A stretch of DNA of 59,653 bases from a virus, in the IMG/VR virus record IMGVR_UViG_3300042691_012584, positions 1 through 59,653 of that record; one strand, 5' to 3'. The position numbers and the translations under genes were made by a program. Below are positions 19,685-42,157 of this stretch, one piece after another (position 1 is the stretch's first letter; each line of letters begins with the position of its first letter). The notes under the pieces were generated by a model. It was not told the origin of the DNA. It worked only from the letters and a program-made list of their open reading frames with translations, and ran no database searches.

Positions 19685-20496
19685 GCGGCGTCCATGATCG
19701 AGACCCCGGCCGACTGCCGGTGAAGTTCACGGATGACGTCCTTGGTCTTCGTCGCCTCCAGCCACGTCACGATCTGGGGGATGACAGGCAAGGCCCCGTG
19801 GGCGATCAGCCACTCCGCGAACTCGGCGGCGGCCTGCTCACCGATGTCGCGGTCGATCTGCTTGTTTTCTGTCTTCCCGGAACGCTCGGCGGCGATCTGC
19901 GCCAGCTTGGCGCGGTCAGGGGTGGCGGCCTTGAGCAGCCTGTCCTGCGTCCAGCCCTCTGCGCGGGCTTGGTCGCGGACGTCCTGGGGCAGCGAGGCGA
20001 TCTTTTCGGCGCGACGGATGGATGGCTCAGAGACGCCCAACGTCTCGGCCGTCTTCTTGAAGCCCTTGTCGTGCGGCTGGTGGCCGCCCAAAGGGGTGTC
20101 AACTTGACGCCCCTTATCCGCCGTCAGCCGGCGCCACTCGTCGATATGCTCGGCCCGGTCAACAGGGGAGAGTTCTGCGCGGTGCAGGTTCTCCGCGATC
20201 TCCCAAAGGCGGGCATCAATTTCGTCGCCGTCTATGACCGCGACGTCGATCATTTCCCACCCGAGACGCTTAGCCGCCTCTAGCCGGTGCAGGCCCGCGA
20301 CAAGTGCGGGCTGATCCGAAAGAACCGCTCCGTCTGCCGATACAGCATCAGGGACCATGCGGACGCTGATGGGCGTCCGCAGGCCGAGGGACCGCATCGA
20401 CTCTTCCAAGGCAGGAAGTTTGCTCTCATCAAGAGCACGCTTCCGTTGCCCGAGAAGAATGGCATCCACGGCCATGCGCTCGATGATCGTGGGCAT
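19681..20496 (-). CDS. ParB-like protein with HTH
   Basis: 271 residues from ATG 20496. The ParB N-terminal fold shows SMRSLGLRTPISVRMV, LVAGLHRLEAAKRLGWEMIDV (the G-R/H-x-R loop is GLHRLEA here) and AENLHRAELSPVDRAEHIDEW. A KorB/ParB-type HTH follows (KTAETLGVSEPSIRRAEKIASLP, about residues 145-168). ParB enzymes bind centromere sites and hydrolyse CTP; phage relatives may instead be regulators or nucleases. No ParA gene is seen. Directly downstream of a second ParB-fold gene. Confidence 0.8.
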   Translation of the reverse strand: MPTIIERMAVDAILLGQRKRALDESKLPALEESMRSLGLRTPISVRMVPDAVSADGAVLSDQPALVAGLHRLEAAKRLGWEMIDVAVIDGDEIDARLWEIAENLHRAELSPVDRAEHIDEWRRLTADKGRQVDTPLGGHQPHDKGFKKTAETLGVSEPSIRRAEKIASLPQDVRDQARAEGWTQDRLLKAATPDRAKLAQIAAERSGKTENKQIDRDIGEQAAAEFAEWLIAHGALPVIPQIVTWLEATKTKDVIRELHRQSAGVSIMDAA

Positions 20497-21425
20497 CACT
20501 GCACCTGCGGGAACGGTTCGGGCGACGACCCTCCGGTAATCCACCGGAGAACCTTCGTCGGGACGCCAGCGCGGCGATGGTTCCACGACTTGATCGCGAG
20601 GGCGGCCAACTCCGTCACGGGGAGTTTGCCCTTCGCCGCCAAGTTCTCGATCAGGCGTGCGCGAAGAGCGCCGACGTTGTTGTGCTTCCCGACAACCCCA
20701 TCCCCCGTCGCCAGCTCAACGAAGAAGCGATCAGCGGCAACCTGATCAACGCGCGCCATGAGGTAGTGGAGGGCCGCCCAAGCACCGGCTGACCACCGGA
20801 ACACGCGGTAGGTCGCTCGCCCGTGCGTCATGCTGATCTGCACGTCGTCCCATCGCATCGCACTCAGACGATCCGTGATTTCCTGCGGCGTCCGATGCGT
20901 GCCAAGGTGCATCTTAGCCTCGTAGTTGATGATGAACTTCACCATCACCGCAACGTACGTGGCATCCGGCACGCCACTCATCCCGAGGATGTCACCGGCA
21001 GTGCGCTTCGCGCCAAGATCGACGGTGTTTCGGCTGGATCGCGTGACCCCAAACACGAAGATCGAGCGAATGGCGGTGTTCGATAGCAAAACCGCGTTGA
21101 GACGGTGCTGCCCGTCGTTTAGCTCCCCGGTGTCGGAGATGATGATCGGCTCGCCGTTCAGATCCCAATCGCCGCGAAGGATCGCTGCGGCGTACTCTCC
21201 AACCTTGGACCGATAAACGGCGCGGTTCGCCGGGTTCCTGGCGAGCAACAGTTCCGCCAGTTCCGGCGTGACCGTCACCGTCTCCGTGAACACGCCGTCC
21301 GTCGCCATGCGGCGGATTTGGTGGTCGAGCCACGACTTCGCCCGAGCCTCCGGGCTAGCGGTAGGAAGCTTCTGCTTGGCGACAAACTCGCCCAACGTCT
21401 TGTCAAAAACGATATCGAGTGTCAT
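20496..21425 (-). CDS. Second ParB-fold / DGQHR-like protein
   Basis: 309 residues from ATG 21425 (AAGGGA upstream). The core TVTPELAELLLARNPANRAV, GDWDLNGEPIIISDTGELNDGQHRLNAVLLSN and SIFVFGVTRSSRNTVDLGAKRT is a ParB/DGQHR-type nucleotide-binding fold with the motif DGQHRL (about residues 90-95). The helical C-terminus (LATGDGVVGKHNNVGALR) resembles phage proteins of unknown function that act near replication genes. TGATG overlap with the next gene indicates they work together. Confidence 0.7.
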   Translation of the reverse strand: MTLDIVFDKTLGEFVAKQKLPTASPEARAKSWLDHQIRRMATDGVFTETVTVTPELAELLLARNPANRAVYRSKVGEYAAAILRGDWDLNGEPIIISDTGELNDGQHRLNAVLLSNTAIRSIFVFGVTRSSRNTVDLGAKRTAGDILGMSGVPDATYVAVMVKFIINYEAKMHLGTHRTPQEITDRLSAMRWDDVQISMTHGRATYRVFRWSAGAWAALHYLMARVDQVAADRFFVELATGDGVVGKHNNVGALRARLIENLAAKGKLPVTELAALAIKSWNHRRAGVPTKVLRWITGGSSPEPFPQVQ

Positions 21426-28204: not shown

Positions 28205-28650
28205 GTGAGATCGACTGGAAGGCCCGCGCCGAATCAGCCGAGGCCCGCGAGGCCGTGCTGCTTGACCTTATCCGGCGGATGCCGCAGACCTTGGTGGCGC
28301 AACCCGGCAAGGTGTCTAGCGAAATGACGCTGACATTGGCCGATCTTGGTCTCGCCGCCGCTGCCCGTGACGCCCGTATCCGTGAAGAGGGACGGCGGGA
28401 GGGGATCGAGGAGGCGGCGGGGGTAGCGACATCCCCTAAGCACGTCGCGCCAGTTTGCCCCTACGCGAACGATCAGCCGGGCGACCCGACATGGACGCAC
28501 ACGGACAAGGACGTTTGCCCGGTGTGCAAGAAGACGGGGGAGAATAGCGCTGGGCACTGCACCGTATATGTTGGCGGGCGCATCTCCACCGCCATCCGCG
28601 CACTCCTCGACCCCGAAGCCGTGCTAAAGATGATGGAGGATGGGCGATGA
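28201..28650 (+). CDS. Early protein with C-terminal DPEAVLK box and Cys/His motif
   Basis: 149 residues. Opens with a helix (WKARAESAEAREAVLLDLI), has CPYANDQPGDPTWTHTDKDVCPVCKKTGENSAGHC (about residues 85-120, possible zinc site) and ends RALLDPEAVLKMMEDGR. The terminal box is shared with several later proteins of this operon (28916, 29991, 30916, 32407), indicating one expanded family. Confidence 0.65.
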   Translation: MSEIDWKARAESAEAREAVLLDLIRRMPQTLVAQPGKVSSEMTLTLADLGLAAAARDARIREEGRREGIEEAAGVATSPKHVAPVCPYANDQPGDPTWTHTDKDVCPVCKKTGENSAGHCTVYVGGRISTAIRALLDPEAVLKMMEDGR

Positions 28651-28919
28651 CGGTCTATCGCATCAGCCACGCTCCTCGGTTCGCGATCAGCACGAAATGG
28701 GACGGAGGCGAGGATGCCCCGCCGCACATCTCCCGCCGCACGAAGCGCGGATCGGTGTCGAGCGCGCCGCAGACTTTTTACGGCGACACCCTGCCGCTCG
28801 CTGAGGTCGTGCGCCTGATGGAGTGGGCATACGACGTTGGAGTGAGGGACGCCAAGGGCGCGGTGCGATCAGCGATCGGGCTTGGCGCGTTCGACGATGA
28901 CGGGGAGGACGGGCGATGA
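28647..28919 (+). CDS. Small early protein
   Basis: 90 residues (MTVYRISHAPRFAISTKWDG, then VVRLMEWAYDVGVRDAKGAV) ending DDDGEDGR. No family assigned. Confidence 0.55.
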   Translation: MTVYRISHAPRFAISTKWDGGEDAPPHISRRTKRGSVSSAPQTFYGDTLPLAEVVRLMEWAYDVGVRDAKGAVRSAIGLGAFDDDGEDGR

Positions 28920-29287
28920 ACGATGATCCGAAGTGCCCGCCGGAAGGGCTGGACATTGTCAGGCGTCTCCGCAGCATCGCCCGAGCAATCACATACTCTT
29001 CGGATGCCGCTGAAAATAGGCATGAGTGGGAGGCCGCCGACGAGATCACCCGCCTCCGGAGCGAGGTGGCGCGGCTGACGGCCGAGCGGGACAAGGCGCT
29101 GACCGTGGCCGTGGTGTTGAACGAGACGGACACGCGGGCCGACCGCCACGCCCGCGACATCGCCGTGGTGGAGGCGGCGCTGGAGGCGGCGATGGATGCG
29201 GTGAGCGACAACGGTTGCGACAACGTGGGTGCCATCTACTACCTCGACCCCGAGGCTGTGCTCAAAGCGATGGAGGAGGGGCGATGA
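28916..29287 (+). CDS. Coiled-coil early protein of the DPEAVLK family
   Basis: 123 residues. ITRLRSEVARLTAERDKALT is a leucine-zipper-type coiled coil, followed by VAVVLNETDTRADRHARDI and the terminal YYLDPEAVLKAMEEGR. The first bases of the gene (ATGAACGATGATCCGAAGTG) and the central block are nearly identical to the gene at 32407-33072, so one arose from the other by duplication. Confidence 0.65.
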   Translation: MNDDPKCPPEGLDIVRRLRSIARAITYSSDAAENRHEWEAADEITRLRSEVARLTAERDKALTVAVVLNETDTRADRHARDIAVVEAALEAAMDAVSDNGCDNVGAIYYLDPEAVLKAMEEGR

Positions 29288-29562
29288 TCGGATGCAAGTC
29301 CTGCGCGAACGACCCCGATCCGGTCAACGGCGTCACCTACCTCGTCTGCACGAAGGGCGACAGGTGCCGAGAGCGTCTCGCCATCACCCTCCTAGACCGC
29401 ATCGGAGAGCATGCGGCAGACGCGCTGATCGCGGGGATGGCGTGCGTAGTGCCGGTTGAGCCTACGTGGGAGATGAACGAAGCGTGGCTTGACCCCCAGC
29501 CCGGCAACTGGCCCGCCATGATCGCCGCCGGTCGGCTCAAGGCGATGGAGGAAGGGCGATGA
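29284..29562 (+). CDS. Early protein with CxxC and shared tail
   Basis: 92 residues from ATG 29284: MIGCKSCANDPDPVNGVTYL (CKSC), a helix LLDRIGEHAADALIAGMACV, VPVEPTWEMNEAWLDPQPGNWPAMIAAGRLKAMEEGR. The last part corresponds to VPVEATDAM...MLAAGRL in the protein at 33069-33464, so these two are paralogues too. Confidence 0.6.
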   Translation: MIGCKSCANDPDPVNGVTYLVCTKGDRCRERLAITLLDRIGEHAADALIAGMACVVPVEPTWEMNEAWLDPQPGNWPAMIAAGRLKAMEEGR

Positions 29563-29750
29563 CGGACGCCGATTTGGCGACAATGACGGTCGATGCGATC
29601 GTCCCCCGCTTGCTTGATGAGGTGGAGAGGTTGAGAAGCGAGAACGCCGCCCTGAAGGAACGCGTCAGGGTCGCCGAGGCGTTCATGGGCTGGGAAATGC
29701 GCGACATAGAAGACGCCGAATCCGTGCGCGAGGAGAGGCCCGGTGACTGA
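29559..29750 (+). CDS. Small coiled-coil early protein
   Basis: 63 residues; RLLDEVERLRSENAALKERV forms a short coiled coil as in the neighbouring duplicated genes. Overlaps the start of the next gene by 8 bases. Confidence 0.55.
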   Translation: MTDADLATMTVDAIVPRLLDEVERLRSENAALKERVRVAEAFMGWEMRDIEDAESVREERPGD

Positions 29751-29922
29751 CGACCCCAATCAATCGGCTTTCAACGGGCTACTAACCACCGCCGCCCTGT
29801 GCCTCGCGGTGGTGGTGTGGTCGCTATTCGGGGGCGACGTCGCGCTCAAGGTCTTCGTGCATATCGGGCTTGCGGCAATGCTGGCGTGGTGGCTGTACGT
29901 CGTTGTGACGATTGACAAGTGA
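29743..29922 (+). CDS. Small two-helix membrane protein (59 aa, GTG start)
   Basis: MTDDPNQSAFNGLLTTAALC, LAVVVWSLFGGDVALKVFVH, IGLAAMLAWWLYVVVTIDK: two hydrophobic segments (about residues 13-28 and 38-56) with a short loop. The GTG at 29743 overlaps the preceding stop. Holin-like topology is possible, but it is in the early operon, so membrane exclusion or host-takeover roles are as likely. Confidence 0.55.
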   Translation: MTDDPNQSAFNGLLTTAALCLAVVVWSLFGGDVALKVFVHIGLAAMLAWWLYVVVTIDK

Positions 29923-29928
29923 GGCCAC

Positions 29929-29959
29929 TTGACGCGCCAGCACGGCGCGCGCGCATAAC
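29929..29959 (+). promoter_or_regulatory. Weak possible promoter
   Basis: TTGACG (29929-29934) and CATAAC (29954-29959) lie in the only sizeable gap of the early operon (29923-29990), but the spacer is 19 bases. Could give a secondary transcript for 29991 onward. Confidence 0.3.
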
Positions 29960-29990
29960 GCTCTGACCACTGACCAAGAGAGAACACCTC

Positions 29991-30641
29991 ATGCTGTTTC
30001 GTTTCCTGTCTCAGGCCGACCTGGCCGACCACCTGACAAACTTCTGCGTCACGCCCCGCGCGACCGATGCGAAGGACTTCACCCGCGGCTACCGCCAGGC
30101 GCTCAAGGACGCCGGTGCCCTGGTCCGCGTGGCCGACTTGCCCGAGCCGCAAACAAGCGAGCAGCAGTTCCTCGCCCTGGCGAACAAGTTCCAGGTCGCG
30201 AGCGTCAGCATCCAGCGCGACATGGCACGCACCCTGTACATCGTGATCCTGGCGAACGGGTGGACGTTCAACACCGGCCCGGCGAACGGTAAGAATTCGT
30301 TTACGTTCGCCAGTCCTGAGCACGCCATCGCGGACACCACGCGGCACACGCGGTGTGCCGAACCGGTTGACGCCCTCGTCGCCGCGCTCGAGGACGCCAC
30401 GCGGTGTGCCGAACCGGTCGACGCCCGCGACGTGGCGATGGTCAAGGCGGGGATTGAGGCGGCTGCGAAACTCCACGACGACCACGCCGACAGGCTTGCC
30501 GAATCTGCCCGTCGATACCGGGCGAACACCGGCGAGCCCGACGGGCCGCGCATCCATGCGGCCGAGGACCACCGCGAGAACGCGAAGGCTATCCGCGCGA
30601 TCAACGCCGAGGCCGTGCTCAAGGCGATGGTCGATGACTGA
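29991..30641 (+). CDS. Early protein with internal duplication
   Basis: 216 residues. N-terminal FLSQADLADHLTNFCVTPRA and FLALANKFQVASVSIQRDMARTLYIVILANG are unassigned. A short internal duplication encodes TRCAEPVDAL and TRCAEPVDAR (about bases 30343-30372 and 30396-30425, near-identical DNA). The C-terminus AKAIRAINAEAVLKAMVDD is the shared box in variant form. Follows the only larger gap in the operon and has a GAGAG ribosome site. Confidence 0.65.
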   Translation: MLFRFLSQADLADHLTNFCVTPRATDAKDFTRGYRQALKDAGALVRVADLPEPQTSEQQFLALANKFQVASVSIQRDMARTLYIVILANGWTFNTGPANGKNSFTFASPEHAIADTTRHTRCAEPVDALVAALEDATRCAEPVDARDVAMVKAGIEAAAKLHDDHADRLAESARRYRANTGEPDGPRIHAAEDHRENAKAIRAINAEAVLKAMVDD

Positions 30642-30879
30642 ACCTGATCTGAGCGAGTTCGGTTTCGGGCGTCTGAAGCCGAAACCGTCGAACCAGCGTG
30701 CCCTCGACATCGCCAACGCGGTGATCGAACTCGTCGAGGCACACCAAGAACTCAACAAGGCCCGAGACTCGGTGCCCGACTACACCGCTCAGTGGTCGAA
30801 CGAAGACTACTACGGCTCCGAGCAAGAAGCCTTCTATCGCGCCGCCACCAAGCTGCAGGAGGTGATCGATGCAACGTAA
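30634..30879 (+). CDS. Small early protein
   Basis: 81 residues from ATG 30634: MTEPDLSEFGFGRLKPKPSN, VIELVEAHQELNKARDSVPD, EQEAFYRAATKLQEVIDAT. Helical C-terminus; no domain. Overlaps the previous gene by 8 bases. Confidence 0.6.
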   Translation: MTEPDLSEFGFGRLKPKPSNQRALDIANAVIELVEAHQELNKARDSVPDYTAQWSNEDYYGSEQEAFYRAATKLQEVIDAT

Positions 30880-30915
30880 GAACGTCGAAGCGGCGCTCGA
30901 CGCGAAGAGCGGGCG

Positions 30916-31587
30916 ATGACGCGGGCGTTGGTGGCGGATGACGGGGCGGGTGACGTGGACATCGTGGACATGCTGCGCCCAATGCCCCAGACGCCCGACC
31001 TGATTTCGTGCGGCGTGCAGGCGAAGTATCTGCGCCAAGCCGCAAACGAGATCGTGCGGGACCGAGCCGAGATCACCCGCCTCCGGGGCGATGTGGAGCG
31101 GCTGACGAAGGAGCGGGACGAGGCGCGGGACTTCGCCCTGCGAAAGTCTAAGGAGGCGTTTGAAGGCAATGCCGGTGCCGTGAATAAGCTGGGTCTGAAC
31201 GCAATGGACGTTCATCCCATTCTCATGGCCGTCCAGACGTGGAACATTTCCACAGGCCGGGCGAGGGAGCTTATCCGCTGCTGGGTCCTGGGGACCTTTG
31301 CGGAAGACATGCTCCCGACCGGGGGTGAAGACCTGGGCATCGCGGAAGACGATGACCCGGCGGATGTGCTGCGATCAACCCGCGCCCGCGCCGACGCGGC
31401 CGAGGCCGACCGCCACGCCCGCGACCTCGCCGTCGTGAAGACTGCGCTGGAGGTGGCGGCGGGGGTGGCCGAGACCGACAAGCATCGGTTCGAGCAATAC
31501 TACGGGCCGACGGCACAGGGGTCTTACATCGCAAAGACTGTCCGCGCCATCGACCCCGAAGCCGTGCTCAAGAGGATAGAGGAGTGA
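30916..31587 (+). CDS. Large member of the DPEAVLK coiled-coil family
   Basis: 223 residues. Shares with its paralogues the coiled coil EITRLRGDVERLTKERDEAR (about residues 52-71), the DRHARDLAVVKTALEVAAG block and the end RAIDPEAVLKRIEE. A unique insert (AVQTWNISTGRARELIRCWVLGTFAEDMLPTGGEDL) sits between them. The modular make-up suggests recombination between family members. Confidence 0.65.
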   Translation: MTRALVADDGAGDVDIVDMLRPMPQTPDLISCGVQAKYLRQAANEIVRDRAEITRLRGDVERLTKERDEARDFALRKSKEAFEGNAGAVNKLGLNAMDVHPILMAVQTWNISTGRARELIRCWVLGTFAEDMLPTGGEDLGIAEDDDPADVLRSTRARADAAEADRHARDLAVVKTALEVAAGVAETDKHRFEQYYGPTAQGSYIAKTVRAIDPEAVLKRIEE

Positions 31588-31591
31588 CCCC

Positions 31592-31798
31592 ATGAGCAAA
31601 TTCACCATCGGCGCGATCGTCGCCGTGATGGAAGACCAGACCGTGGTCCGACAGGACGTCGTCACGAAGGTCTACAAGACGGGCAACTTCACGCTGCGCG
31701 ACAGCGACGATCACCTGTCCTGGAACGATGGGTGGAACGCCGCGGCCGACGCCGCCGCGGAAGATGACGACGAAGGACGGGAGGGAGCGGATGAATAG
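31592..31798 (+). CDS. Small KOW/SH3-like early protein
   Basis: 68 residues: FTIGAIVAVMEDQTVVRQDV then VYKTGNFTLRDSDDHLSWN, with an acidic tail (AAEDDDEGREGADE). Beta-rich small barrel is likely; function unknown. Confidence 0.6.
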   Translation: MSKFTIGAIVAVMEDQTVVRQDVVTKVYKTGNFTLRDSDDHLSWNDGWNAAADAAAEDDDEGREGADE

Positions 31799-31991
31799 GA
31801 GACCCCTCGTGGGTGGGCTCGGGATCGCGGTCGCCATGGCGCTCGCGGCGGTGGAGCGGAAGCGCGCGGCCCCGCCCGAAACTGGCGAAGGCAAGAGCGC
31901 CACGGAGCCTACCACCGCCCCGCCCGACGAGACGTGGAGCCGCCAGCGGCGCCGCGCCTGGGAGCGCAAGCACGGAAGGACCGCCCGATGA
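31791..31991 (+). CDS. Small protein with hydrophobic N-terminus
   Basis: 66 residues from ATG 31791. MNRRPLVGGLGIAVAMALAAVERKR looks like a signal anchor, followed by a polar, basic tail (SRQRRRAWERKHGR). Possibly a small membrane-associated protein. Confidence 0.5.
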   Translation: MNRRPLVGGLGIAVAMALAAVERKRAAPPETGEGKSATEPTTAPPDETWSRQRRRAWERKHGRTAR

Positions 31992-32410
31992 GTGGCAAGA
32001 GGATCATCGACGGGTTGAACGAGGCACTCGCCCATGCGTCGTCTCCCGTCGCCGACGTGTTCGCCCGCGTGCAGCGCGTCGCGGCCCCCGACCCGGAGCT
32101 CGATCAGGCGATCTTCGCGGCCGTCTACGGGTGGTCGTTCCCGCTCCATGGGGCGGCGGTGTCCGACTACATCTCCCGCGGGCGCCCCGCCTACACCGCA
32201 ACCCTCGACGCCGCGCGGACGCTGATTCCACCCGAGCACTCGTTCGCCCTGTTCGACCACGACGCCAAGCTCGGCGGGAGTGCAGGAGCGAAGGTCGGCC
32301 ACCGCACGGCCCGGGCCGAGGATGTGCCGTGGGTCTACCATCCCGACCCCGTGCTGGCGCTCTGTGCCGCCGCCCTCATGGCCCGGATGGCGATGGAGTG
32401 CGGACGATGA
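31988..32410 (+). CDS. Early protein of the phage ABA-sandwich-like type
   Basis: 140 residues: DVFARVQRVAAPDPELDQAIFAAVYGW, AVSDYISRGRPAYTATLDAARTLIPPEHSFALFDHD and DPVLALCAAALMARMAMECG. The opening APDPELDxAI, the YT.S.DAA..LvP.g and the final P.LALCAAAL.AR match a widespread small phage protein family with an alpha-beta-alpha fold and unknown role. Confidence 0.7.
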   Translation: MSGKRIIDGLNEALAHASSPVADVFARVQRVAAPDPELDQAIFAAVYGWSFPLHGAAVSDYISRGRPAYTATLDAARTLIPPEHSFALFDHDAKLGGSAGAKVGHRTARAEDVPWVYHPDPVLALCAAALMARMAMECGR

Positions 32411-33072
32411 ACGATGATCCGAAGTGCCCGGCGTGCGTGCAGATTGGCCTCAACCTGCCGATGCTTCCGCCGCCTCATACCTGCCGCCCCGGCTGCGTGC
32501 GGGCGGCGGGGACGGAGGGCGGTGCGCAGTCGCGTCACGTCCCGTATCGGCCGGTGTCGTTCGCCGAGCGGGCGCACGTCGTCGCGGAGTTCGCGGGGCG
32601 TGAACCCGAGCGGCACATGGCAAACTATATTGTCAGAGCCCGGTCCGAGATCGTCCGCCTGCGCGCCGAGAACGAGCGGATGGAGGATGCCGGACGCCAC
32701 CATGCGTCGGAACTGCGACTGGCAGTGCTGGCAGAGCGCGCTCGCCATCACAGCGAGATCACCCACATCCGTGCCGAAGTGGAGCGGCTGACGAAGGAGC
32801 GGAACAAGGCGCTGGCCGTGGCCGTGGTGTTGAACGAGACGGACACGCTGGTCGACCGCCACGCCCGCGACATCGCCGTGGTGAAGGCGGCGCTGGAGGC
32901 GGCGGCAGGATCGGCGAAGACCATCATCCTGGCTCACCCCATCGGGGTCGGCCTGCGCGGCATGTCCGCTGTCGTGAGCGATCGGGACGGGGCGATCGCC
33001 GATAAGGTGGAAACCAGCATCCGCGACCTCGACCCCGAGGCCGTGCTCAAGGGGATGGAGGATGGGCGATGA
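32407..33072 (+). CDS. Coiled-coil early protein, duplicate of 28916 gene
   Basis: 221 residues: MNDDPKCPACVQIGLNLPML with a Cys/His cluster (CPAC, HTCRPGC), a long coiled coil (SEIVRLRAENERMED; AEVERLTKERNKAL), VAVVLNETDTLVDRHARDIAVVKAALEAAAG, and the end SIRDLDPEAVLKGMEDGR. Very similar at DNA level to parts of 28916-29287. The best full-length example of the family. Confidence 0.65.
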   Translation: MNDDPKCPACVQIGLNLPMLPPPHTCRPGCVRAAGTEGGAQSRHVPYRPVSFAERAHVVAEFAGREPERHMANYIVRARSEIVRLRAENERMEDAGRHHASELRLAVLAERARHHSEITHIRAEVERLTKERNKALAVAVVLNETDTLVDRHARDIAVVKAALEAAAGSAKTIILAHPIGVGLRGMSAVVSDRDGAIADKVETSIRDLDPEAVLKGMEDGR

Positions 33073-33464
33073 CGCGGGATGAACTGGAGCGCAAGATCGG
33101 CCACCACGTCGCGTTCGCGATGACGGGCAACCGGATGCCGGACATGAGCGGCGACGCCCGCAACCGGCTGAGCCCGATGCAACGTCGGAACTGCGATCAC
33201 GCGGTTGAGGCCATCATTGACCACCCCCGCATCGCCCGCGCCCTCGCCGTCATCGACCGGATCGGCGACGAGGCGGCCGAGGCGATCCGCGAGGGGCGGG
33301 CAGCGGTGGTGCCGGTGGAGGCGACGGATGCGATGTACGGCGCAGGTGGCCCAGAAATGGGGGACTACGGTCACATGGACCCAGACGACGACGTGTACGG
33401 TGACCAAGCGAAAGTGTGGTCCGCCATGCTCGCCGCCGGCCGTCTCGACCGGGGAGGAGCGTGA
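33069..33464 (+). CDS. Early protein, relative of 29284 gene
   Basis: 131 residues: MTRDELERKIGHHVAFAMTG, NCDHAVEAIIDHPRIARALAVID, GRAAVVPVEATDAMYGAGG, and MLAAGRLDRGGA. The VPVEATxAM...AMLAAG part is a familiar phage segment and mirrors 29284-29562. Function unknown. Confidence 0.6.
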   Translation: MTRDELERKIGHHVAFAMTGNRMPDMSGDARNRLSPMQRRNCDHAVEAIIDHPRIARALAVIDRIGDEAAEAIREGRAAVVPVEATDAMYGAGGPEMGDYGHMDPDDDVYGDQAKVWSAMLAAGRLDRGGA

Positions 33465-34241: not shown

Positions 34242-34751
34242 TCACCGCTTCAGCGTCGCGTTGATGGCGTCGGCCGACCGGCGGGCACCGTTCGACGTCC
34301 CGAAGTAAAAACCCACCACGGCGGTCCAGGCGGTCGCCAGCGAGCCGATGAGGACCAGCAGGGGTTCGCGCCCCACCTCGGGCAGCCCGAACGCCATGGC
34401 GAAGCCAAGCGCCGCGAAAAAACCCAGGGTGATGAAGAACGCCAGCGCCGGGGTCGCCCAGTCCCGCATCAGCGCGTGCCGGGCGCGGGCGTCGGCACGG
34501 TCGGCGGCGTCGGCGCGGATCACGTCCAACTCAATTTCCGCTAACCGGGTGCGGAGTTGGGCAGCAAGCGCCGGATCGCCCGCAAGCGCCTGCGCGACCG
34601 CATCGGGCTCAGTCTGTCCGGTGACCGCCTGCGCGACTTCGACCACCTTGCGCGCGATGTCTCCGGCCGGCTCTCCTGCGATGCGTTCCGCGACGGCGGG
34701 GACGATGTAGGGCAACACGGCCCCCAGAAGGGGGAGCAACGGGAGGGGCAT
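34242..34751 (-). CDS. Putative holin (GTA 3-TM type)
   Basis: 169 residues. N-terminal hydrophobic PLLPLLGAVLPYIVPAVAERIAG, an Ala/Gln helical middle, and two C-terminal hydrophobic helices (WATPALAFFITLGFFAALGFAMAFG; LLVLIGSLATAWTAVVGFYFGTS). The C-terminal part fits the three-TM holin family of gene transfer agents and related phages. It would permeabilise the inner membrane at lysis time. The lysozyme gene is directly upstream. Confidence 0.75.
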   Translation of the reverse strand: MPLPLLPLLGAVLPYIVPAVAERIAGEPAGDIARKVVEVAQAVTGQTEPDAVAQALAGDPALAAQLRTRLAEIELDVIRADAADRADARARHALMRDWATPALAFFITLGFFAALGFAMAFGLPEVGREPLLVLIGSLATAWTAVVGFYFGTSNGARRSADAINATLKR

Positions 34752-34754
34752 GGA

Positions 34755-35270
34755 TCACTCCTTCACGAATAGAGCGCGCTCGGCGGCGCGGCGGCGCACA
34801 AGTCCCGGAAGTTCGACGCCCTTGGCCTTCGTCCACCGGCCGAACTGATCAGCCGCACCCGCGTAGTCCCCAGCATTGAGCATCTTGGCGAGGGTGGACG
34901 CACCAAAGGCCCCGGCCCCGATGTTGTAGGCGAGGCTCGCGCAAGCGCCGTGCTGGTTAGCAGTCAAGGGGACCGTGACGGCCCGGCGAACCGCGATGGC
35001 GAACTGCCGGGCGTCAACCGCAAGGCGCACATCGGCTTGTTGCTGCGTCCACGTCAGTCCACCCACGATGCCGTCCCCGGTCGCGCCCCAGCCGATCGTC
35101 CACACGCCCGCTGGACAGCGGTAGGCCGTCAGCTTGCACCCCTCGAATTCCTTGATGACGGGAAGGGCCGCATTGACCGCGAGGGTGATCGGATCGACCG
35201 GGATGGGTGGAGAAGTGGCGGGCGCACGCACGCGCGCGAAACGCTCGGCAAGGCGGGACCAGAGAGACAT
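34755..35270 (-). CDS. Endolysin, GH24 lysozyme
   Basis: 171 residues from ATG 35270 (GGAGG site). Catalytic region LPVIKEFEGCKLTAYRCPAGVWTIGWGAT (about residues 38-66) gives the E-8aa-C-5aa-T pattern, with Cys in place of the T4 Asp20, as in other phage lysozymes of this group. C-terminal conserved parts include QHGACASLAYNIGAGAFGASTL and FGRWTKAKGVELPGLVRRRAAERALF. N-terminal 30 residues (SLWSRLAERFARVRAP) are basic and not an obvious signal-arrest anchor, so it would rely on the holin. Confidence 0.9.
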   Translation of the reverse strand: MSLWSRLAERFARVRAPATSPPIPVDPITLAVNAALPVIKEFEGCKLTAYRCPAGVWTIGWGATGDGIVGGLTWTQQQADVRLAVDARQFAIAVRRAVTVPLTANQHGACASLAYNIGAGAFGASTLAKMLNAGDYAGAADQFGRWTKAKGVELPGLVRRRAAERALFVKE

Positions 35271-35280
35271 GACGCCTCCA

Positions 35281-35442
35281 TCAATTCGGCTTTGGCGACC
35301 AGTCGGTTTCGATGACGAATTCAAGGGCATCCGCGCCCTCGTCATCGGGGGCGAACTCGACCTTGGGGTGCTTGCGGGGTTCGCGGATCGGCGGCGGCTT
35401 CTTGGGTCGCTTCTTGATCCTAGGCGGCACGGGGCTCGCCAT
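35281..35442 (-). CDS. Small Lys/Pro-rich protein (53 aa)
   Basis: MASPVPPRIKKRPKKPPPIR, EPRKHPKVEFAPDDEGADAL, EFVIETDWSPKPN. Overlaps the phosphoesterase gene by 23 bases. A basic Pro-rich N-terminus and acidic C-terminus; the role is unknown. Translation is likely from codon bias and position rather than homology. Confidence 0.5.
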   Translation of the reverse strand: MASPVPPRIKKRPKKPPPIREPRKHPKVEFAPDDEGADALEFVIETDWSPKPN

Positions 35443-36439
35443 AGAGCCGGGACAGTTCACGGAACGTGCGGAGAGGTGCGGACAGGATTTCCCCGCCCTC
35501 GATCATCATGTCCACGATGCCGTAGGTAAAACCCGTGGGGAGAGAGCTGGCATAGGATGGAACGTAATTGTGGGGCATGGCGCACCCGACATTTACGACC
35601 GTCACGCTGTTCGCGTAACCCTGCTTCGGCCGGCGCACGTAGTTATAGCGGTGGGTGTGCCCGAACACGACGCTAAACGTCGCCTCGTTCGCAATGGTGT
35701 TCTCGACGTTCTTCCCGCCAAGCGGGCGGCCCATGATGGACTGCGGCGCGTGGGTGAACCCCACTCCGCCGATCACCGTCCAATGCCGATAGCCTTGGTG
35801 GGTCCAGCCGAAGGATTCAAAGAGCGTGTCCCGCTGGCCGGCGTACATGCCCCGCGCTTTGGGGTCGATGTCCTCGGCGCGCTCGGCTCTCTCTTCGTGG
35901 TTCCCGTATGTGATGTGCTTGCGGGGGTGGAAATCGGGCGACAACTGAGCGTCGAAGACCTGCAACGCATCCAGACCCGACGCCATGTCTTCCATGAAGG
36001 ACGGCTTCCCGCGCGCTTTGTATGTGTCTTCCCGTTCGTGGGTGGACAAGCTCGCGAAGTCGAGGAAGTCCCCGATACTGAGGATCACGTCCGGCCGTGT
36101 CGCTTCGGCGTGGGCGCCCATCAACGCGAAGCGGGACTTGTCGGGGACGCGGGGGTCGTCGTGGGCGTCCCCGATCACCATCACCCGGACAAGCCCCTCC
36201 GGCGGGCCGATCTTCCGGTACTTCGGCGCCTCCCTCGGGGACAGGTCGGGAACCGGCGAGCCATAGTCCTGCGTCAGTTCCGCCACCATCCTTCGGCCTT
36301 CGGACGAGTAGATGGTTGACCCCAACGTTTTGGTGTTGATGCCCAACTCGCTTGCGGCGCGAACGACGGACTTATCATTGCGAAGCCACGCCTCGATCCG
36401 GGTTCGGATCGCATCTTCCGCAAGGGATCGCCCGGTCAT
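35420..36439 (-). CDS. Calcineurin-like metallophosphoesterase
   Basis: 339 residues. N-terminal 60 residues form a HTH-like domain (NDKSVVRAASELGINTKTLGSTI). The phosphoesterase motifs are in order: VMVIGDAHDDPR (D-x-H), ILSIGDFLDF (GD), ITYGNHEERAER (GNHE) and VVFGHTHRYNY (GHxH). Such phage enzymes may cleave nucleic-acid ends, cyclic nucleotides or phosphoesters; the N-terminal HTH suggests DNA. It lies between the lysis genes and the ejection proteins. Confidence 0.85.
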   Translation of the reverse strand: MTGRSLAEDAIRTRIEAWLRNDKSVVRAASELGINTKTLGSTIYSSEGRRMVAELTQDYGSPVPDLSPREAPKYRKIGPPEGLVRVMVIGDAHDDPRVPDKSRFALMGAHAEATRPDVILSIGDFLDFASLSTHEREDTYKARGKPSFMEDMASGLDALQVFDAQLSPDFHPRKHITYGNHEERAERAEDIDPKARGMYAGQRDTLFESFGWTHQGYRHWTVIGGVGFTHAPQSIMGRPLGGKNVENTIANEATFSVVFGHTHRYNYVRRPKQGYANSVTVVNVGCAMPHNYVPSYASSLPTGFTYGIVDMMIEGGEILSAPLRTFRELSRLYGEPRAA

Positions 36440-36675
36440 CGGTCAGGCCCGAACCTGTCCAGACGATGTTCGATCCGTTGCAGGCTCTCCCCGGCGGACC
36501 GAAGCTGCGCTTCCAATTCAGTCAGGCGGGTGGACGTCTGTTCGTTCTGGCTGATCCACCGCTCTATGTGATCCACCCGTGTCGTGAGCCGCGAGGCCCA
36601 CCACACGAAGCCGATAAGGTGGGCGAGGGTCACGACCGCCAGCCCCAGGATCGGCGCCACGTCCCCGGCGCTCAC
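36436..36675 (-). CDS. Membrane-anchored coiled-coil protein (spanin-like)
   Basis: 79 residues. One N-terminal transmembrane helix (PILGLAVVTLAHLIGFVWWAS) and a periplasmic-type coiled coil (DHIERWISQN, LTELEAQLRSAGESLQRIEHRL). The architecture equals that of an inner-membrane spanin (i-spanin) or DUF2730-type protein. The next gene encodes a small exported protein, so the pair could disrupt the outer membrane. Confidence 0.6.
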   Translation of the reverse strand: MSAGDVAPILGLAVVTLAHLIGFVWWASRLTTRVDHIERWISQNEQTSTRLTELEAQLRSAGESLQRIEHRLDRFGPDR

Positions 36676-36953
36676 GACGGATCACCATCAAGATGGACCT
36701 TCAGCCCGTTGCCCTCGACCCCGCAGGCCATGCCCCGCATGGGCGAAAGCAGCATGATCGCCCCCTTGCCATCGGGGAGCCTAACCATGGCCCACACGTC
36801 CCCGTCGCCGTCGGTGAACTCGGCCACCGGAGCCGCCTTGAGCGACTTCAGGATGTCCATCGCCGCCTGCAAAGGCATACAGGGGAGACGCACTTGCGCC
36901 GCGGCCGAACTCGAAACGAGCGCGACCGCAGCGGCTATGACCGCTGTCCTCAT
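36672..36953 (-). CDS. Small exported protein
   Basis: 93 residues. Signal peptide MRTAVIAAAVALVSSSAAAQ with an Ala-x-Ala cleavage site near residue 19; mature part has two Cys (CMPLQ, GMACGVEG) that may form a disulfide. No lipobox, so not a classical o-spanin. Coupled (ATGA) to the membrane coiled-coil protein. Confidence 0.65.
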   Translation of the reverse strand: MRTAVIAAAVALVSSSAAAQVRLPCMPLQAAMDILKSLKAAPVAEFTDGDGDVWAMVRLPDGKGAIMLLSPMRGMACGVEGNGLKVHLDGDPS

Positions 36954-36974
36954 GGGGGCTCCTGTATGTCCGTA

Positions 36975-37003
36975 TTGTTGGCCGGCACGCGGCCCGGTAG
37001 AGT
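36975..37003 (+). promoter_or_regulatory. Promoter for the plus-strand moron
   Basis: TTGTTG (36975-36980), 17 bases, TAGAGT (36998-37003). Only 6 bases separate the -10 from ATG 37010, so the transcript would be leaderless. Confidence 0.6.
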
Positions 37004-37009
37004 GGGCGG

Positions 37010-37210
37010 ATGATCTTGAAATTCGCGCAGTTCGTCGTGGTCTGTTACGTGACGTGGTTCCTGCTGTATGGCGGGGCTCAGGTCTCAACCACGAATCCGC
37101 TCGCTGCCGGCCTTGCCGGCTGGTTCTGCGCCTTCCTCTTCACCTTGGCGTGGATGTGGGTGAAGGGTCTATTCGCCGGTCTGGCCGGGCTTCGGAAGAG
37201 CTATCATTGA
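37010..37210 (+). CDS. Moron: two-helix inner membrane protein
   Basis: 66 residues with two hydrophobic helices (ILKFAQFVVVCYVTWFLLYGG; LAAGLAGWFCAFLFTLAWMWVKGLFAGLAG). It is the only plus-strand gene in 34-48.8 kb, has its own promoter and overlaps the 3' end of the ejection-protein gene (37169). Independently transcribed small membrane proteins in late regions are typical superinfection-exclusion or lysogenic-conversion genes; that role is inferred. Confidence 0.6.
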   Translation: MILKFAQFVVVCYVTWFLLYGGAQVSTTNPLAAGLAGWFCAFLFTLAWMWVKGLFAGLAGLRKSYH

Positions 37211-39211
37211 CGCCACCACTGAGATGGCCGGGTCGCTGTTCGGAGCCAGAACGGACAACCGTTTGAGGCGGTCGATGGCGTCCGGGGCCGTCAGGATGTC
37301 GGCCAGTTCTTCGGCGTTCTTCCGGTAGCGGGCGCGCTGGACCCATTCCGTGATTGTCTTCTTGGGCGTCAACGCTTGCTGCACCCCGCCTTGTTCCATC
37401 TCGCGCGTGAGGAGCCGGTTGAACTCCGTCTGAGACCCGGGGGCAAGGCGTCGGCCCGTGGCTTCCAGCACTTGCAACAGGTTCTCAAAACCCTGCCGGA
37501 TGGACGTGCCGTTCTTCGGGTCCAACGCCTCCAGCGCCGCAGACAGATTGCGATCCTGTTGCGGGTTGCCGGCGACGAGAATGCGGAACCGGGCACCTGC
37601 GTTCTCGGCGTTAGTCAGTTGCTTCTTCGACGCCTCATTAAAGGCGTTCTGAAGGAACTGGCGGGTCAGGTCGCGGGCCGCAGTCGGGTCTTTCTCATTC
37701 ACTTCAAGGATCGCCCGACGGACGGCATTCGGGTTCAACGTCTCAGGCTTCGCGGGGAAGAGGATCTGGCGCTGCTTGGCAAAGGCGCCCGCATCCAACG
37801 GGTCCGTCGCGGCAAGCTGCCCGACCGGGGATCGGATGGCGGGGTTCACGATTTCGTTGGTGATCCGCTCGTACTCGGCAAGGCCCTGACGGTAGTCGTC
37901 GCTGCTTCGCGCCATCAGGTCACGCAGTTCGCCCAGAAGCGGGCCGATCTTCGCCGCCGTCTCCTTATCGATGGCGTCTGCCGCGATGTCGGGCTTGTCC
38001 ATACGGTCGCGGAAGAACTTACGCGCGCGGTCAAGATTCTCAATGTCCGTCACCGGGACGCGGGCCTGAGCGGGCGTACCGGGCGTGGATGGAACGAACT
38101 TTCCATCGACGTACTGAGCGCGGGTTCCCGGCACGGCGTCTTTGGCCGGCGCTTCAATCAGTCGGCGGCGCAACTCGGCCAGCGGGCCACCAGACAGGAT
38201 GCCCGTCTTGTCGGCCGCAATCATGTCATCGATCTTGGCAATGATACCCTCGACGTCCTGTGCCGGGACGCGAACGGGGTCTGCGGCCTTGTAAAGCGGC
38301 CTTACCGCCTGAGTACGCGCCTCTCCCACGTCCTTAATCACGTCCTGTGCTGCGGCTTGGACGCGGGGCGGGATTTCGGCCGGGATGGGCGATGCCGGGC
38401 CAATGGCGTCCAGTTCGCGCGTCACCGCGCCTTCAACCTGACCGGGGCGGCGGTTCATAAAATCCTGCATCCGCACGCCACCGCCGCGCGACTGCTCAAC
38501 GACCCGTTGGACGTCCTGCAACGGGGTGCGGCCGGTCACCTGTGCGATGGCCTCAGCCACCGTCAGATCAACGCCCCTCGACCGTGCGGCATCCATCAAC
38601 CGCTGCGTCATCTCGACCTGAGATGGATCAAGCCCCTCCAGCGCATCGCGGGCGATGGACGACGACGTGGCGGGAAACGCGCGAACCTGCCCAGCGAGCA
38701 ACGGAAGACCGACGCCAGCGACGACGCGCCCAGCCTGTTCGTAGGGCGTGCCCTCAAGCGCCTGCCCGGCGGCCTCGGCACCACCGCCACCAAGCGCGCC
38801 CATGATCACACCACCAGCGCCGAAGGGCGAACTCGCCATCCCCTCAACCGCCCCGGCTGCGATCTTCCCCGGTGCGCTTTCCGGGCGACGGTTCATCTGG
38901 AACCCCAACTTCCCCATGAACCCGGCGACGTCTTCCGGGGTGGGGAGAAGGTTCTTCACCTCGTAGGCGGGAGGGAGGCCCGTGGCGGCTTCCATGCCAG
39001 CATTCGCCCCGGAGCGGACGAGCGACTCAACTGACCCAGGAAGGCCGATCAAGTTGGCGATGCCCCGCAGGGCCGCCTGAGACGCCAAGTCCTGTGCGTT
39101 TACCGCCGTTTCGGCACCGGAGACGATGGCGGCCTTCGCCCTGTCACCGCGCGACGGGATAAGATCCGCGAAGTCGTCGCCGGGGATCAGGTCATCGAAC
39201 TCGCCAGCCAT
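37169..39211 (-). CDS. Large internal/ejection virion protein
   Basis: 680 residues from ATG 39211 (or GTG 39214). The N-terminal MAGEFDDLIPGDDFADLIPS contains two FADLIP-like repeats typical of podoviral ejection proteins. A hydrophobic Gly/Ala region follows (FGAGGVIMGALGGGGAEAAGQ, RVVAGVGLPLLAG, about residues 130-190), then a long helical body (about 230-660). Third and last of the three large internal proteins encoded in a row; such proteins form the ejected tunnel or protect DNA entry. Confidence 0.7.
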   Translation of the reverse strand: MAGEFDDLIPGDDFADLIPSRGDRAKAAIVSGAETAVNAQDLASQAALRGIANLIGLPGSVESLVRSGANAGMEAATGLPPAYEVKNLLPTPEDVAGFMGKLGFQMNRRPESAPGKIAAGAVEGMASSPFGAGGVIMGALGGGGAEAAGQALEGTPYEQAGRVVAGVGLPLLAGQVRAFPATSSSIARDALEGLDPSQVEMTQRLMDAARSRGVDLTVAEAIAQVTGRTPLQDVQRVVEQSRGGGVRMQDFMNRRPGQVEGAVTRELDAIGPASPIPAEIPPRVQAAAQDVIKDVGEARTQAVRPLYKAADPVRVPAQDVEGIIAKIDDMIAADKTGILSGGPLAELRRRLIEAPAKDAVPGTRAQYVDGKFVPSTPGTPAQARVPVTDIENLDRARKFFRDRMDKPDIAADAIDKETAAKIGPLLGELRDLMARSSDDYRQGLAEYERITNEIVNPAIRSPVGQLAATDPLDAGAFAKQRQILFPAKPETLNPNAVRRAILEVNEKDPTAARDLTRQFLQNAFNEASKKQLTNAENAGARFRILVAGNPQQDRNLSAALEALDPKNGTSIRQGFENLLQVLEATGRRLAPGSQTEFNRLLTREMEQGGVQQALTPKKTITEWVQRARYRKNAEELADILTAPDAIDRLKRLSVLAPNSDPAISVVASMIALPKPGQTGE

Positions 39212-40551
39212 CACAGGTCTCCCGGAGGCTCAATGCCCATATCCCGCAGGCGCTTGGCGATAGCGTCCCTTTGAGCCCCGCGAGCAATAGCGGCACGAGC
39301 GCGCTTGATGACGTCTTCTTGCTCGGGCGTGTAGGACGTGGCTGCTGGGCGCGGCTGCTGCGCGGCCAGGGCATCGGCTGCCGGGCGCTGCGTCGTCAGA
39401 AGGTTGCGCTGGCGCGTCGTGAGCGGGTCGCCCAGCTTGGACAATTCCTCAGACACAGACACCGGGTCGGGCACGTTCCCGTTCTTCCGCGCGTTGTCGC
39501 GGAACACCTGCGCCACCTTGCGGTCGTACTCGTCCAACTGCCGCATCATGCCGAGGATTGCCCGGACGCCATCCGGGGTGTTGGCGAGGGTCGGGATCTG
39601 GTTGCGGATGATGGACCGCTCGTTCTCCGTGATCTGGCCTTGCCCCTTCGGCGCCACCTCAAGTTCAAGGCGGGCTTGGAGGGACTTGAAGACCTCGGCG
39701 TCGGACAGATTGCCGCCCACCTTGATACCGAACACGTCGTCCAGCAACTTGGACGCATTCAAGCGCAGCTCCGCCGTCGCGCCGGGCTTGAAGCCGTCGA
39801 TGGCCTGTTCCATGCGATCGTAGAACTGAGCGCGGCGATCGGCAGAACGCGCGGCCTCCTGCGCGACGCCGAACTGAGTGGCGGCGTCGGTGTATAGCTT
39901 CTCTGTCCCCTTGCGCTCGCCGGTCACGGTCACGTTGGTCGAGGCGGGGGCGGGCCGATCCCCGAGACGGCGCCCGAGGCCCGTGGGGCTGTTCGGGTCG
40001 CGCTCAAACACGCCTTGTTCCGTCGTGACGGTGGTGGGCGCCCTCGGCGTCTGCAACGATGCTGCTAGGTACGTGCGCCCCGCGCCATCGGGGTCTGCCA
40101 AGATGATCTGCTTCTGTGCGGGCGTCAGTTTGGTGTCGGATTCCAGCGCCGTGCGGAGCGATTGCCGCGTGGCCCGCTGTTGTTCCCCCGCCGCAATCTG
40201 CCCGCCGATCTGAGCCTTCTGGACCAGTTCGCGGACGTTCTGGTTTCCCGTCTTTTCGACGTTGGCAAGGGCGGCCTGCCCGGCTTCTCCCACCGCTCCG
40301 AAGAGGGAGGGGGACCGGGATGCCAGCATTCCCAGACCAAGCTGAAGCAACAGGTCGTAGGGACGTGCCGCGCGGTCGCTCTCGACGGCTTCCTGATAGG
40401 CTTCCGTCGTGAGCTCTGGGAAGACGGCGGGGGCCTTCCGGCTCCCGCCCCCGCCCTTCAGTGCGGCGAGGAACCTTTCCATGCGATCTTCGGGCGTATC
40501 GCCAAAGTCAGAGATTTCGGCGTCATCAACCCCAAGAATCATGCCGGTCAT
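39211..40551 (-). CDS. Internal/ejection virion protein
   Basis: 446 residues, largely helical. Key stretches: MTGMILGVDDAEISDFGDTP, GLGMLASRSPSLFGAVGEAGQAALAN (about residues 72-97; the LLxxGLGMMAG.S..pl..iG.g pattern of podoviral internal proteins), then GQIAAGEQQRATRQ and an LTPAQKQIILADPDG spacer. The C-terminus carries YTPEQEDVIKRARAAIARGA typical of such proteins. Good GAGGTGAG ribosome site. Confidence 0.75.
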   Translation of the reverse strand: MTGMILGVDDAEISDFGDTPEDRMERFLAALKGGGGSRKAPAVFPELTTEAYQEAVESDRAARPYDLLLQLGLGMLASRSPSLFGAVGEAGQAALANVEKTGNQNVRELVQKAQIGGQIAAGEQQRATRQSLRTALESDTKLTPAQKQIILADPDGAGRTYLAASLQTPRAPTTVTTEQGVFERDPNSPTGLGRRLGDRPAPASTNVTVTGERKGTEKLYTDAATQFGVAQEAARSADRRAQFYDRMEQAIDGFKPGATAELRLNASKLLDDVFGIKVGGNLSDAEVFKSLQARLELEVAPKGQGQITENERSIIRNQIPTLANTPDGVRAILGMMRQLDEYDRKVAQVFRDNARKNGNVPDPVSVSEELSKLGDPLTTRQRNLLTTQRPAADALAAQQPRPAATSYTPEQEDVIKRARAAIARGAQRDAIAKRLRDMGIEPPGDL

Positions 40552-40559: not shown

Positions 40560-41549
40560 TCAATCGCGAAAGCCGGGAATGCCGATGCCGTCCTTGCCGA
40601 GCCACCCGAGCCCTCGCGGCCCGGCGATGCCGACGCCGGTTGCCGCTCCGCCGATCAACTGAGACAGAAGCGAGGCCCCCGGCTGGTTCGTCGTCGTGCT
40701 GCGCTCGTAGGGCGTGCCCTGCAAGGCCGACTGAAGGATCTGGAGATTGCGGATCGGCCAGTCCCGAGCCTCGCGGAAATCTCCATATTGCGTGTCAAAG
40801 ATCCCCTGCGCGATGCCACGCTCCTGCCCGCCGAGCGAGTTGAGGAGTTGGATGATCGACGCGTCGTTCCCGAAGCCCGTTTGCCCGAGGTTCGCGAGCG
40901 TCGTGGCCCCGGCAATGTCCCGGCTCGCCCCGGCGTTGTTGATCTGTTCGAGGAGCTGGCTAATCTGCAATCCTCGGTTCTGTTCCTGATTGAACTGCTG
41001 CTGACCGCTCTCGAAAGCCTGAGAGGCGACCTGTCCGACCTGTCGCTGCGTCTGGTCGCGCTGTAGCCCTTCCGCCACCGCCTGACGGGACCCGCCGAAC
41101 GCCCCGGCCTTGGCCGCACGCGCGCGGATGTCGTTAAGGCTCCGGTCCCCCGTGCGCTCGATTTCCCCGAACACCGCGTCCATGTACGGGTTCATAAAGG
41201 CGGTCGTGTCGCTGTCCTTGAACCGCTGGCCGGAGGCGAGCGCGACCGGCATGGCCCCGCTCTCTCGGCCCGTGGCCCCGCGCACCATCCCCGCCGCTTC
41301 GGTGAGGAACGGATTGCCCGACATGCCACCAGCCTTGGTGCGGGCGTCCATCTCCATCGGCGTGAACCCCGCAACGCGAGGCCCGGTGTACTGAGGTGGC
41401 GTGCCGAGGTTCGACGGCCAGTTTCCCGCCGCGACCTGTTCCGCCGTCTGGAAATTACGGCGGCCGGCGTCGGTGACCCAATCGGGGATGCTCTGCGTCT
41501 GCGTGGCGGTCTGGCGGCCGGTGCCGAACAAGTTGTCGAAGATGCTCAT
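40560..41549 (-). CDS. Internal virion protein
   Basis: 329 residues from ATG 41549. The sequence IPDWVTDAGRRNFQTAEQVAAG, then YTGPRVAGFTPMEMDARTKAG, AFMNPYMDAVFGEIERTGDRSLNDIRARAAKAGAFGGSRQAVAEG (about residues 115-160) and QEQNRGLQISQLLEQINNAGASRD is typical of an uncharacterised internal protein in short-tailed phages. C-terminal Gly-rich (GGAATGVGIAGPRGL). Confidence 0.75.
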   Translation of the reverse strand: MSIFDNLFGTGRQTATQTQSIPDWVTDAGRRNFQTAEQVAAGNWPSNLGTPPQYTGPRVAGFTPMEMDARTKAGGMSGNPFLTEAAGMVRGATGRESGAMPVALASGQRFKDSDTTAFMNPYMDAVFGEIERTGDRSLNDIRARAAKAGAFGGSRQAVAEGLQRDQTQRQVGQVASQAFESGQQQFNQEQNRGLQISQLLEQINNAGASRDIAGATTLANLGQTGFGNDASIIQLLNSLGGQERGIAQGIFDTQYGDFREARDWPIRNLQILQSALQGTPYERSTTTNQPGASLLSQLIGGAATGVGIAGPRGLGWLGKDGIGIPGFRD

Positions 41550-41551
41550 GT

Positions 41552-42157
41552 TCACCCCCAGAACCCAGGATCGCCGCCCATGCCCGTCGAATCGCGGGAC
41601 ACGGCGTCGATCGAATTGCCGACAGCATCGGTCGTGCGGTCGCCCGCATCGGGCACGCCGCCTTCACCCATCTGGTTTTCGTTGACGCCCCACTGATTGC
41701 CCTGCGCCTGTAGGGCCGCTTCAAGCATCTGCTGGTCAATGGACGTGCCGAACATCCCGAAGGGGCTGGCCGCGTTGGCGAACGCCGATCCTGACGACAA
41801 GGCGTTGGGGATGCCGAGCGACGCGAGGTCCGACCCCGCGAGGTTCATCCCGCGCGTCGTGTCCACCCCGGCGCCCATGAGGGAGCCGATCAGGCCGCCC
41901 ATCATTCCGCCGGCCATCTTGCCCGAGGAATAGTCGTAGATCGGCCCCTGACTGACCGCGAGGGGATCGCGGCTGTACGAGGGTCCACCCATGCCCATGT
42001 CTTCCGCGCCCCGCGTTTCGGGGATCGGCATCTCTACCTTGGGGAGCGCGGCGGCGACTTCGGGCTTCGGCTCCTCGCGCGCGGGCATCGCGGGCGCATA
42101 GCCTCTCACCCGGTCAGCCCCGAACAAGCCGACCAGCGTATCAAGCAGGGTTGCCAT
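41552..42157 (-). CDS. Virion-module protein
   Basis: 201 residues. MATLLDTLVGLFGADRVRGY, then a Pro/Glu-rich linker, GGMMGGLIGSLMGAGV (hydrophobic, Gly/Met-rich) and QQMLEAALQAQGNQWG. Likely another minor internal or tail protein, between the tail hub protein and the ejection proteins. Confidence 0.6.
   Translation of the reverse strand: MATLLDTLVGLFGADRVRGYAPAMPAREEPKPEVAAALPKVEMPIPETRGAEDMGMGGPSYSRDPLAVSQGPIYDYSSGKMAGGMMGGLIGSLMGAGVDTTRGMNLAGSDLASLGIPNALSSGSAFANAASPFGMFGTSIDQQMLEAALQAQGNQWGVNENQMGEGGVPDAGDRTTDAVGNSIDAVSRDSTGMGGDPGFWG

Follow-up and report, generated by a model that had tools for sequence, protein, structure and literature searches.

The window analysed here, the entire 59,653-nucleotide stretch of viral DNA, raises the question of why a single short plus-strand gene (ORF66) interrupts a long run of minus-strand genes, and what its product may do. 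An earlier note on this DNA described it as a leaderless moron and suggested a role in superinfection exclusion or lysogenic conversion. Direct reading gives exactly the coordinates reported there: TTGTTG begins at 36975, TAGAGT occupies 36998-37003, the ATG lies at 37010 and the stop codon ends at 37210. The minus-strand flanks are also as described, whereas the length of the interrupted block, given as 14 kb, had been understated; with ORFs taken as genes, the block extends over everything from about 34.0 kb up to the window's right end. In the plus-strand gene block at 28593-33312, several short DNA stretches recur, about 83-93% alike. The features of the locus are as follows.

34755-35345, minus strand: endolysin of the lysis region.
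36436-36675, minus strand: 79-aa protein with one helix and a coiled coil, weakly Rz-like (phrog_214, E 0.0022).
36672-36953, minus strand: 93-aa protein, by eye carrying a signal peptide, whose gene has a Shine-Dalgarno-like stretch; left border of the slot that holds ORF66.
36973-37009, plus strand: promoter island, with a -35-like TTGTTG (36975-36980), a 17-base spacer, the -10 box TAGAGT (36998-37003) and GGGCGG (37004-37009).
37010-37210, plus strand: ORF66, 66-aa membrane protein with two predicted helices.
37169-39214, minus strand: 681-aa convergent neighbour, third gene of a trio and gp16-like by order; allele A, start codon GTG.
39211-40551, minus strand: 446-aa second trio gene, gp20-like by order.
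40560-41555, minus strand: 331-aa first trio gene, matching PHROG 4287 'DNA ejection protein' (E 3.7e-16).

Sequence comparison indicates that ORF66 is a real conserved gene. It is retained in the related records L010 and L011 with 66-68% amino-acid identity, and its last 42 bases are shared with the 3' end of the 681-aa gene on the opposite strand. Outside this overlap, the NG86 dN/dS against the two relatives is 0.16 and 0.15, and the differences fall on the three codon positions as 13/8/22 and 13/7/22, third positions changing most. Purifying selection, the excess of third-position changes and the retention in both relatives together identify ORF66 as a gene. A chance ORF without function would fit the promoter taken alone, which is unremarkable, and the abundance of ORFs of this size in the GC-rich window, but it is contradicted by the dN/dS values and the start codon conserved in relatives, and we consider it scarcely credible.

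The protein has no match in PHROGs (E up to 1), Pfam, NCBIfam or PADLOC. An identical ORF66 is present in one IMG/VR contig, which belongs to the same virus (10.2 kb, 100% identical). The tblastn searches gave chance-level matches, one in 50,697 phage records (E 9) and three in 72,556 plasmid records (best E 0.7), and a nucleotide search of phages with positions 35400-39300 matched nothing. A Limnohabitans stretch (L095), the one returned out of 23 candidate genome-contig stretches, showed 45% identity over ORF66 residues 8-42; it was rejected, since stop codons closely bound the matched frame and a long ORF traverses another frame. The earlier description of a 66-aa protein with two membrane helices holds, since hydropathy gives two helices and the AlphaFold model also consists of two helices, at modest confidence (pLDDT 68, pTM 0.36). 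The distribution of charges suggests a hairpin with both termini inside.

The convergent neighbour of ORF66 is part of a P22-like ejection trio of 331, 446 and 681 aa, and the window virus is a short-tailed phage. The minus-strand order is stabilisation protein, 201-, 331-, 446- and 681-aa proteins, slot, and lysis region with the endolysin; by this gene order, the trio corresponds to gp7, gp20 and gp16. The hhalign comparison of allele A with P22 gp16 gave no significant match, and those of the 446-aa protein with P22 gp20 and of the 331-aa protein with P22 gp7 were both negative. The AlphaFold model of the 681-aa protein is poor (pLDDT 40.5), and a PDB sequence search with it returned nothing.

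Among the relatives, the third trio gene occurs as three alleles, A (681 aa), B (784 aa) and C (876 aa), that lack significant mutual similarity; the best value between alleles in a ten-sequence comparison is E 0.07, for A against C. Allele A matches a protein of the Rhizobium phage RHph_N65 (28.5%, E 3e-25) whose gene immediately follows that of a 'putative injection protein'. For allele C, the matches are a 'DNA transfer protein' (E 2e-13) and a structural protein of a Paracoccus phage. Residues 63-172 of allele B are common to Vibrio proteins (best E 3e-7), some of them annotated 'putative 16' or 'head morphogenesis' and others unnamed; in the Vibrio 1.003.O protein, P22 gp16 matches a different, larger part than allele B does. 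Compared directly, allele B and P22 gp16 give no more than a suggestive value (E 0.02 for two sequences). From the gene order and the relatives of its alleles, we infer that the third trio gene encodes an ejection protein.

The relatives L006-L012 were found via a 678-aa stabilisation-type protein (PHROG 3287), in which they are 91-92% alike. The slot occurs in three states. State A carries ORF66 (window, L010 and L011), state B carries an unrelated 50-aa hydrophobic frame, ORF50, behind the same promoter and ATG (L012, L083 and L085), and state C has neither promoter nor ORF (L098). Across the 10 records seen, each state is paired with one particular allele of the convergent neighbour. ORF66 and allele A occur together in all six records that show both (the window and the contigs behind L001, L010, L011, L084 and L088), a count that includes the L001 contig, which is the window virus, and L010, L084 and L088, whose ORF66 proteins are identical. 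ORF50 accompanies allele B in 3/3 (L012, L083 and L085), and allele C occurs without promoter or ORF in 1/1. Another window-virus contig, L005, breaks off within allele A, short of the slot.

The 331-aa protein is 76-77% identical across records of states A, B and C. In the 446-aa gene, the N-terminal part is conserved among haplotypes and the C-terminal part is divergent. The unit of exchange is a block made up of the small membrane ORF, the whole third gene and the C-terminal portion of the second. The linkage of ORF and allele, seen in few lineages, could be plain physical linkage, because ORF66 and the 681-aa neighbour overlap. Two scans of IMG/VR with the promoter pattern, which find only slots retaining the promoter (L098 came via the 93-aa neighbour), detected no further ORF behind it, and the looser pattern added no new contig; the first scan also matched an unrelated site (L086), followed by a 6-codon frame.

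This variation bears out the earlier assignment of ORF66 as a moron: it is dispensable, because it is absent in L098, and exchangeable, because another ORF occupies the slot in L012, L083 and L085. As in phage morons generally, ORF66 is an extra gene with its own predicted promoter that is absent or replaced in close relatives, and the one element of that definition not found is a terminator of its own, no terminator-like site being listed on the plus strand from the end of ORF66 to 37675.

The promoter is weak in the window, matching the consensus at 7/12 letters. A consensus promoter scan did not return it and yielded 2 hits in 15 kb, against a shuffle mean of 1.7; a scan of both strands for -10 boxes lying 5-8 bases ahead of an ATG or GTG that opens an ORF of at least 40 aa, run without shuffles, gave 21 sites at 7/12 or better, the ORF66 site included. 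It is the relatives that make the promoter credible. Their -10 boxes read TATAAT in L010 and L011 and TAGAAT in L012, L083 and L085, and GGGCGGATG is invariant across all six aligned promoter sequences. The -10 box varies at two positions, while the GGGCGG-ATG behind it is fixed in position and sequence in these contigs. The earlier claim of an own promoter thereby gains support, and the start codon lies six bases past the -10 box as that note had stated, a spacing kept in the relatives. Because GGGCGG-ATG follows the -10 box directly in all six promoters, the transcript is probably leaderless, and its translation would be leaderless as well. The G-rich stretch before ORF66 abuts the ATG; the 93-aa gene on the left has its Shine-Dalgarno-like stretch at normal distance. 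Among the 34 genes listed for the window, several others also have no clear Shine-Dalgarno stretch, so that its absence at ORF66 is unremarkable.

The promoter is shared by states A and B as an island. L011 and L085 agree at 42/43 positions (98%) in the stretch that ends with the ATG, and the flanks on both sides are at random level (ungapped identity 0.23 and 0.25). The left flank of L085 has a tRNA-Thr (CGT) just left of the promoter island (L085:483-557) and is otherwise unrelated; a search with it gave no identification, and it may reflect an insertion element, a join made in assembly or a different site altogether. For this reason, the promoter argument also rests on the pairs with a normal left flank: between L010 or L011 and L012 or L083, promoter identity is 0.81-0.93 and ORF identity 0.28. 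An inverted repeat at the -10 box, CCGCCC-8-GGGCGG, was considered as an operator and discarded; it is perfect in five aligned relatives and missing from the window. Elsewhere in the window, a 77-aa minus-strand ORF at 12630-12863, HTH-regulator-like by eye and without a convincing family match, has a perfect TATAAT box separated from its ATG by six bases. Since this spacing equals that of ORF66, the ORF is possibly another leaderless gene.

The location beside the lysis region raises the alternative that ORF66 encodes a lysis protein, namely a class II type holin, a pinholin or an antiholin. Class II holins have two helices and about 65-95 aa, and the size and predicted hairpin of ORF66 agree with this; moreover, the endolysin (34755-35345) and the weakly Rz-like 79-aa protein, whose best match is a family of unknown function (phrog_19911, E 0.00018), lie within about 2.3 kb. 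However, ORF66 has a promoter of its own and runs in the direction opposite to the lysis genes, and it is absent in L098 and replaced by the unrelated ORF50 in L012, L083 and L085. A multi-helix protein at 34242-34751 is the better holin candidate and is kept in all three states (L010 and L088, L083, L098). A lysis function of ORF66 is therefore improbable in our assessment.

It is also conceivable that the transcript matters rather than the protein, with a plus-strand RNA antisense to the end of the 681-aa gene dampening late or leaky expression. The convergent overlap of 42 bases would allow this, and since no terminator-like site is listed on the plus strand up to 37675, the ORF66 RNA may run on into the ejection genes. 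Purifying selection at the protein level outside the overlap and the different intact ORF behind the promoter in state B argue against such a role, which we regard as very unlikely.

The position of ORF66 has a counterpart in P22, where the genes 10, 26, 14, 7, 20 and 16 are followed by the convergent sieA with its own promoter. P22 sieA is a proven DNA-injection-blocking gene. ORF66 shares its geometry: it directly follows the third gene of the trio, faces it convergently and has a promoter of its own. ORF66 thus occupies the position characteristic of the SieA family, next to a neighbour that is gp16-like by order only. Both genes encode membrane proteins, and ORF66 shares with sieA its presence in some relatives and absence from others as well as the occurrence of very different types (PMC10883804). 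P22 SieA, of about 164 aa and with three predicted helices (PMC10883804), is larger than ORF66 with its 66 aa and two helices. In addition, P22 sieA has a Shine-Dalgarno-like leader, whereas ORF66 is apparently leaderless. No similarity of ORF66 to the SieA family was detected (PHROG 7745, E up to 1, and BLAST), while SieA itself matches phrog_7745.

A second small protein offers a partial parallel. HK97 gp15, of 62 aa with a hydrophobic stretch, is annotated 'moron product' and adjoins the tape measure gene. Unlike ORF66, it has one hydrophobic stretch by hydropathy, lies on the late-gene strand and belongs to a long-tailed phage; ORF66 shows no similarity to it (PHROG 5031). Closer in architecture is the 81-aa 'TMhelix containing protein' of the Vibrio phages 199E37-1, 1.003.O, 1.067.O and 1.091.O, which has two helices and is encoded convergently, directly after the gp16-like gene, as ORF66 is. 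It has no sequence similarity to ORF66; its genes in 1.003.O and 1.067.O, the two inspected upstream, have a Shine-Dalgarno-like leader, unlike ORF66.

The same position was surveyed in 21 named phages, a non-random set chosen by similarity searches. An annotated convergent gene directly follows the gp16-like or allele-related gene in 14 of the 21 phages, several of these 14 being closely related, and the genes represent 10 protein families. No convergent gene stands directly there in the other seven (KLEP18-1, RHph_N65, ctkAd229, ctyzp037, L, g341c and phiKp_30). Five of the 10 families lie above the hydropathy threshold for a helix (P22 SieA, the Vibrio 81-aa protein, Vibrio D279, E. coli N7 and Bas95), and, as a rough background rate, the same threshold is passed by 5 of 33 short ORFs on the minus strand of the window. 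The five families below it are HK620 hkcB, Gally, UPF_BP1, PVA1 (a regulator) and DSL-LC04 (a nuclease); by eye, the first two have an N-terminal hydrophobic or lipoprotein-like stretch, and none was seen in the last three. UPF_BP1, Gally and PVA1, the last of which has a sparse annotation, show a gap of about 80-275 bases ahead of the convergent gene. In DSL-LC04, the convergent gene (L115:6385-7095) encodes a PD-(D/E)XK nuclease, not a membrane protein, and overlaps the end of the DNA transfer protein gene.

These comparisons lead us to propose, at an evenly balanced level of confidence, that ORF66 mediates superinfection exclusion from the membrane by interfering with ejection proteins. In such a scheme, it would be a moron product of the inner membrane, working like P22 SieA or HK97 gp15. 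Host polymerase of the sigma-70 type would transcribe ORF66 separately from the late genes, starting at the gene's own promoter and producing a leaderless mRNA, in lysogens or early in infection. Inserted as a two-helix hairpin, the protein would interfere with the ejection proteins that a related phage brings in, and the DNA of that phage would remain undelivered. ORF66 converges on the 3' end of the ejection genes, which would encode its target, and is inherited together with the presumed target allele. The exclusion reading gains support from the sieA-like position beside the ejection genes and from the co-inheritance with the ejection-gene allele, and it is favoured by the exchange of the membrane ORF in one block with the third gene and the C-terminal portion of the second. 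Against it stand the lack of homology to SieA, HK97 gp15 and every family searched and the weak promoter of the window. A strict matching of protein to allele is disfavoured, because P22 SieA types A and B have an indistinguishable target range (PMC10883804).

ORF66 might instead be another kind of membrane moron, one that has no action on ejection proteins and changes the envelope or the physiology of the host (by receptor masking, by lysogenic conversion or as a type I toxin-like peptide). Small hydrophobic proteins with their own promoters serve many roles, and type I toxins can be as short as ORF50, whose length falls in their range. Such a moron predicts neither co-inheritance with an ejection allele nor a sieA-like position, and we rate it as somewhat unlikely. 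The lysogenic conversion that had been suggested finds no backing in the gene content, as no recombinase of PF00589 or PF00239 and no ParA-type ATPase of PF13614 was found in this record, which is possibly a fragment. The record does contain HTH_3, ParB-like and replication-initiation-like genes. An 81-aa plus-strand ORF of the HTH_3 type (Cro/CI-like), a candidate repressor, lies among minus-strand ORFs at 13536-13781, and the replication-initiation-like and ParB-like proteins are encoded on the minus strand at 18254-20586. Because these two occur without PF00589, PF00239 or PF13614, the window virus is possibly a phage-plasmid. If the phage is virulent, the ORF66 protein could still act early in infection.

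ORF66 is in itself an ordinary-sized moron of a known kind; its protein is without a family match, and the informative aspect is the pattern of swapping. Extending the exclusion reading, the slot would be an exchangeable guard-and-target cassette, in which small membrane proteins unrelated to each other sit behind a conserved leaderless promoter island and move together with the ejection-gene allele on which they act (the third gene in full and the C-terminal portion of the second), and the place just 3' of gene 16 would be a general exclusion hot spot in P22-like podoviruses. We put this extension forward as a speculative suggestion that is less likely to hold than to fail. With two unrelated proteins naturally found behind the same promoter, the slot is suited to an exchange experiment. 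Exclusion proteins are small and diverge past recognition; a positional rule (convergent, adjoining the third ejection gene and linked to its allele) would predict them without homology in P22-like genomes and would allow testing whether exclusion tracks the ejection-protein allele. If the hot-spot reading is true, exclusion proteins would be recognisable by their position where sequence similarity fails.
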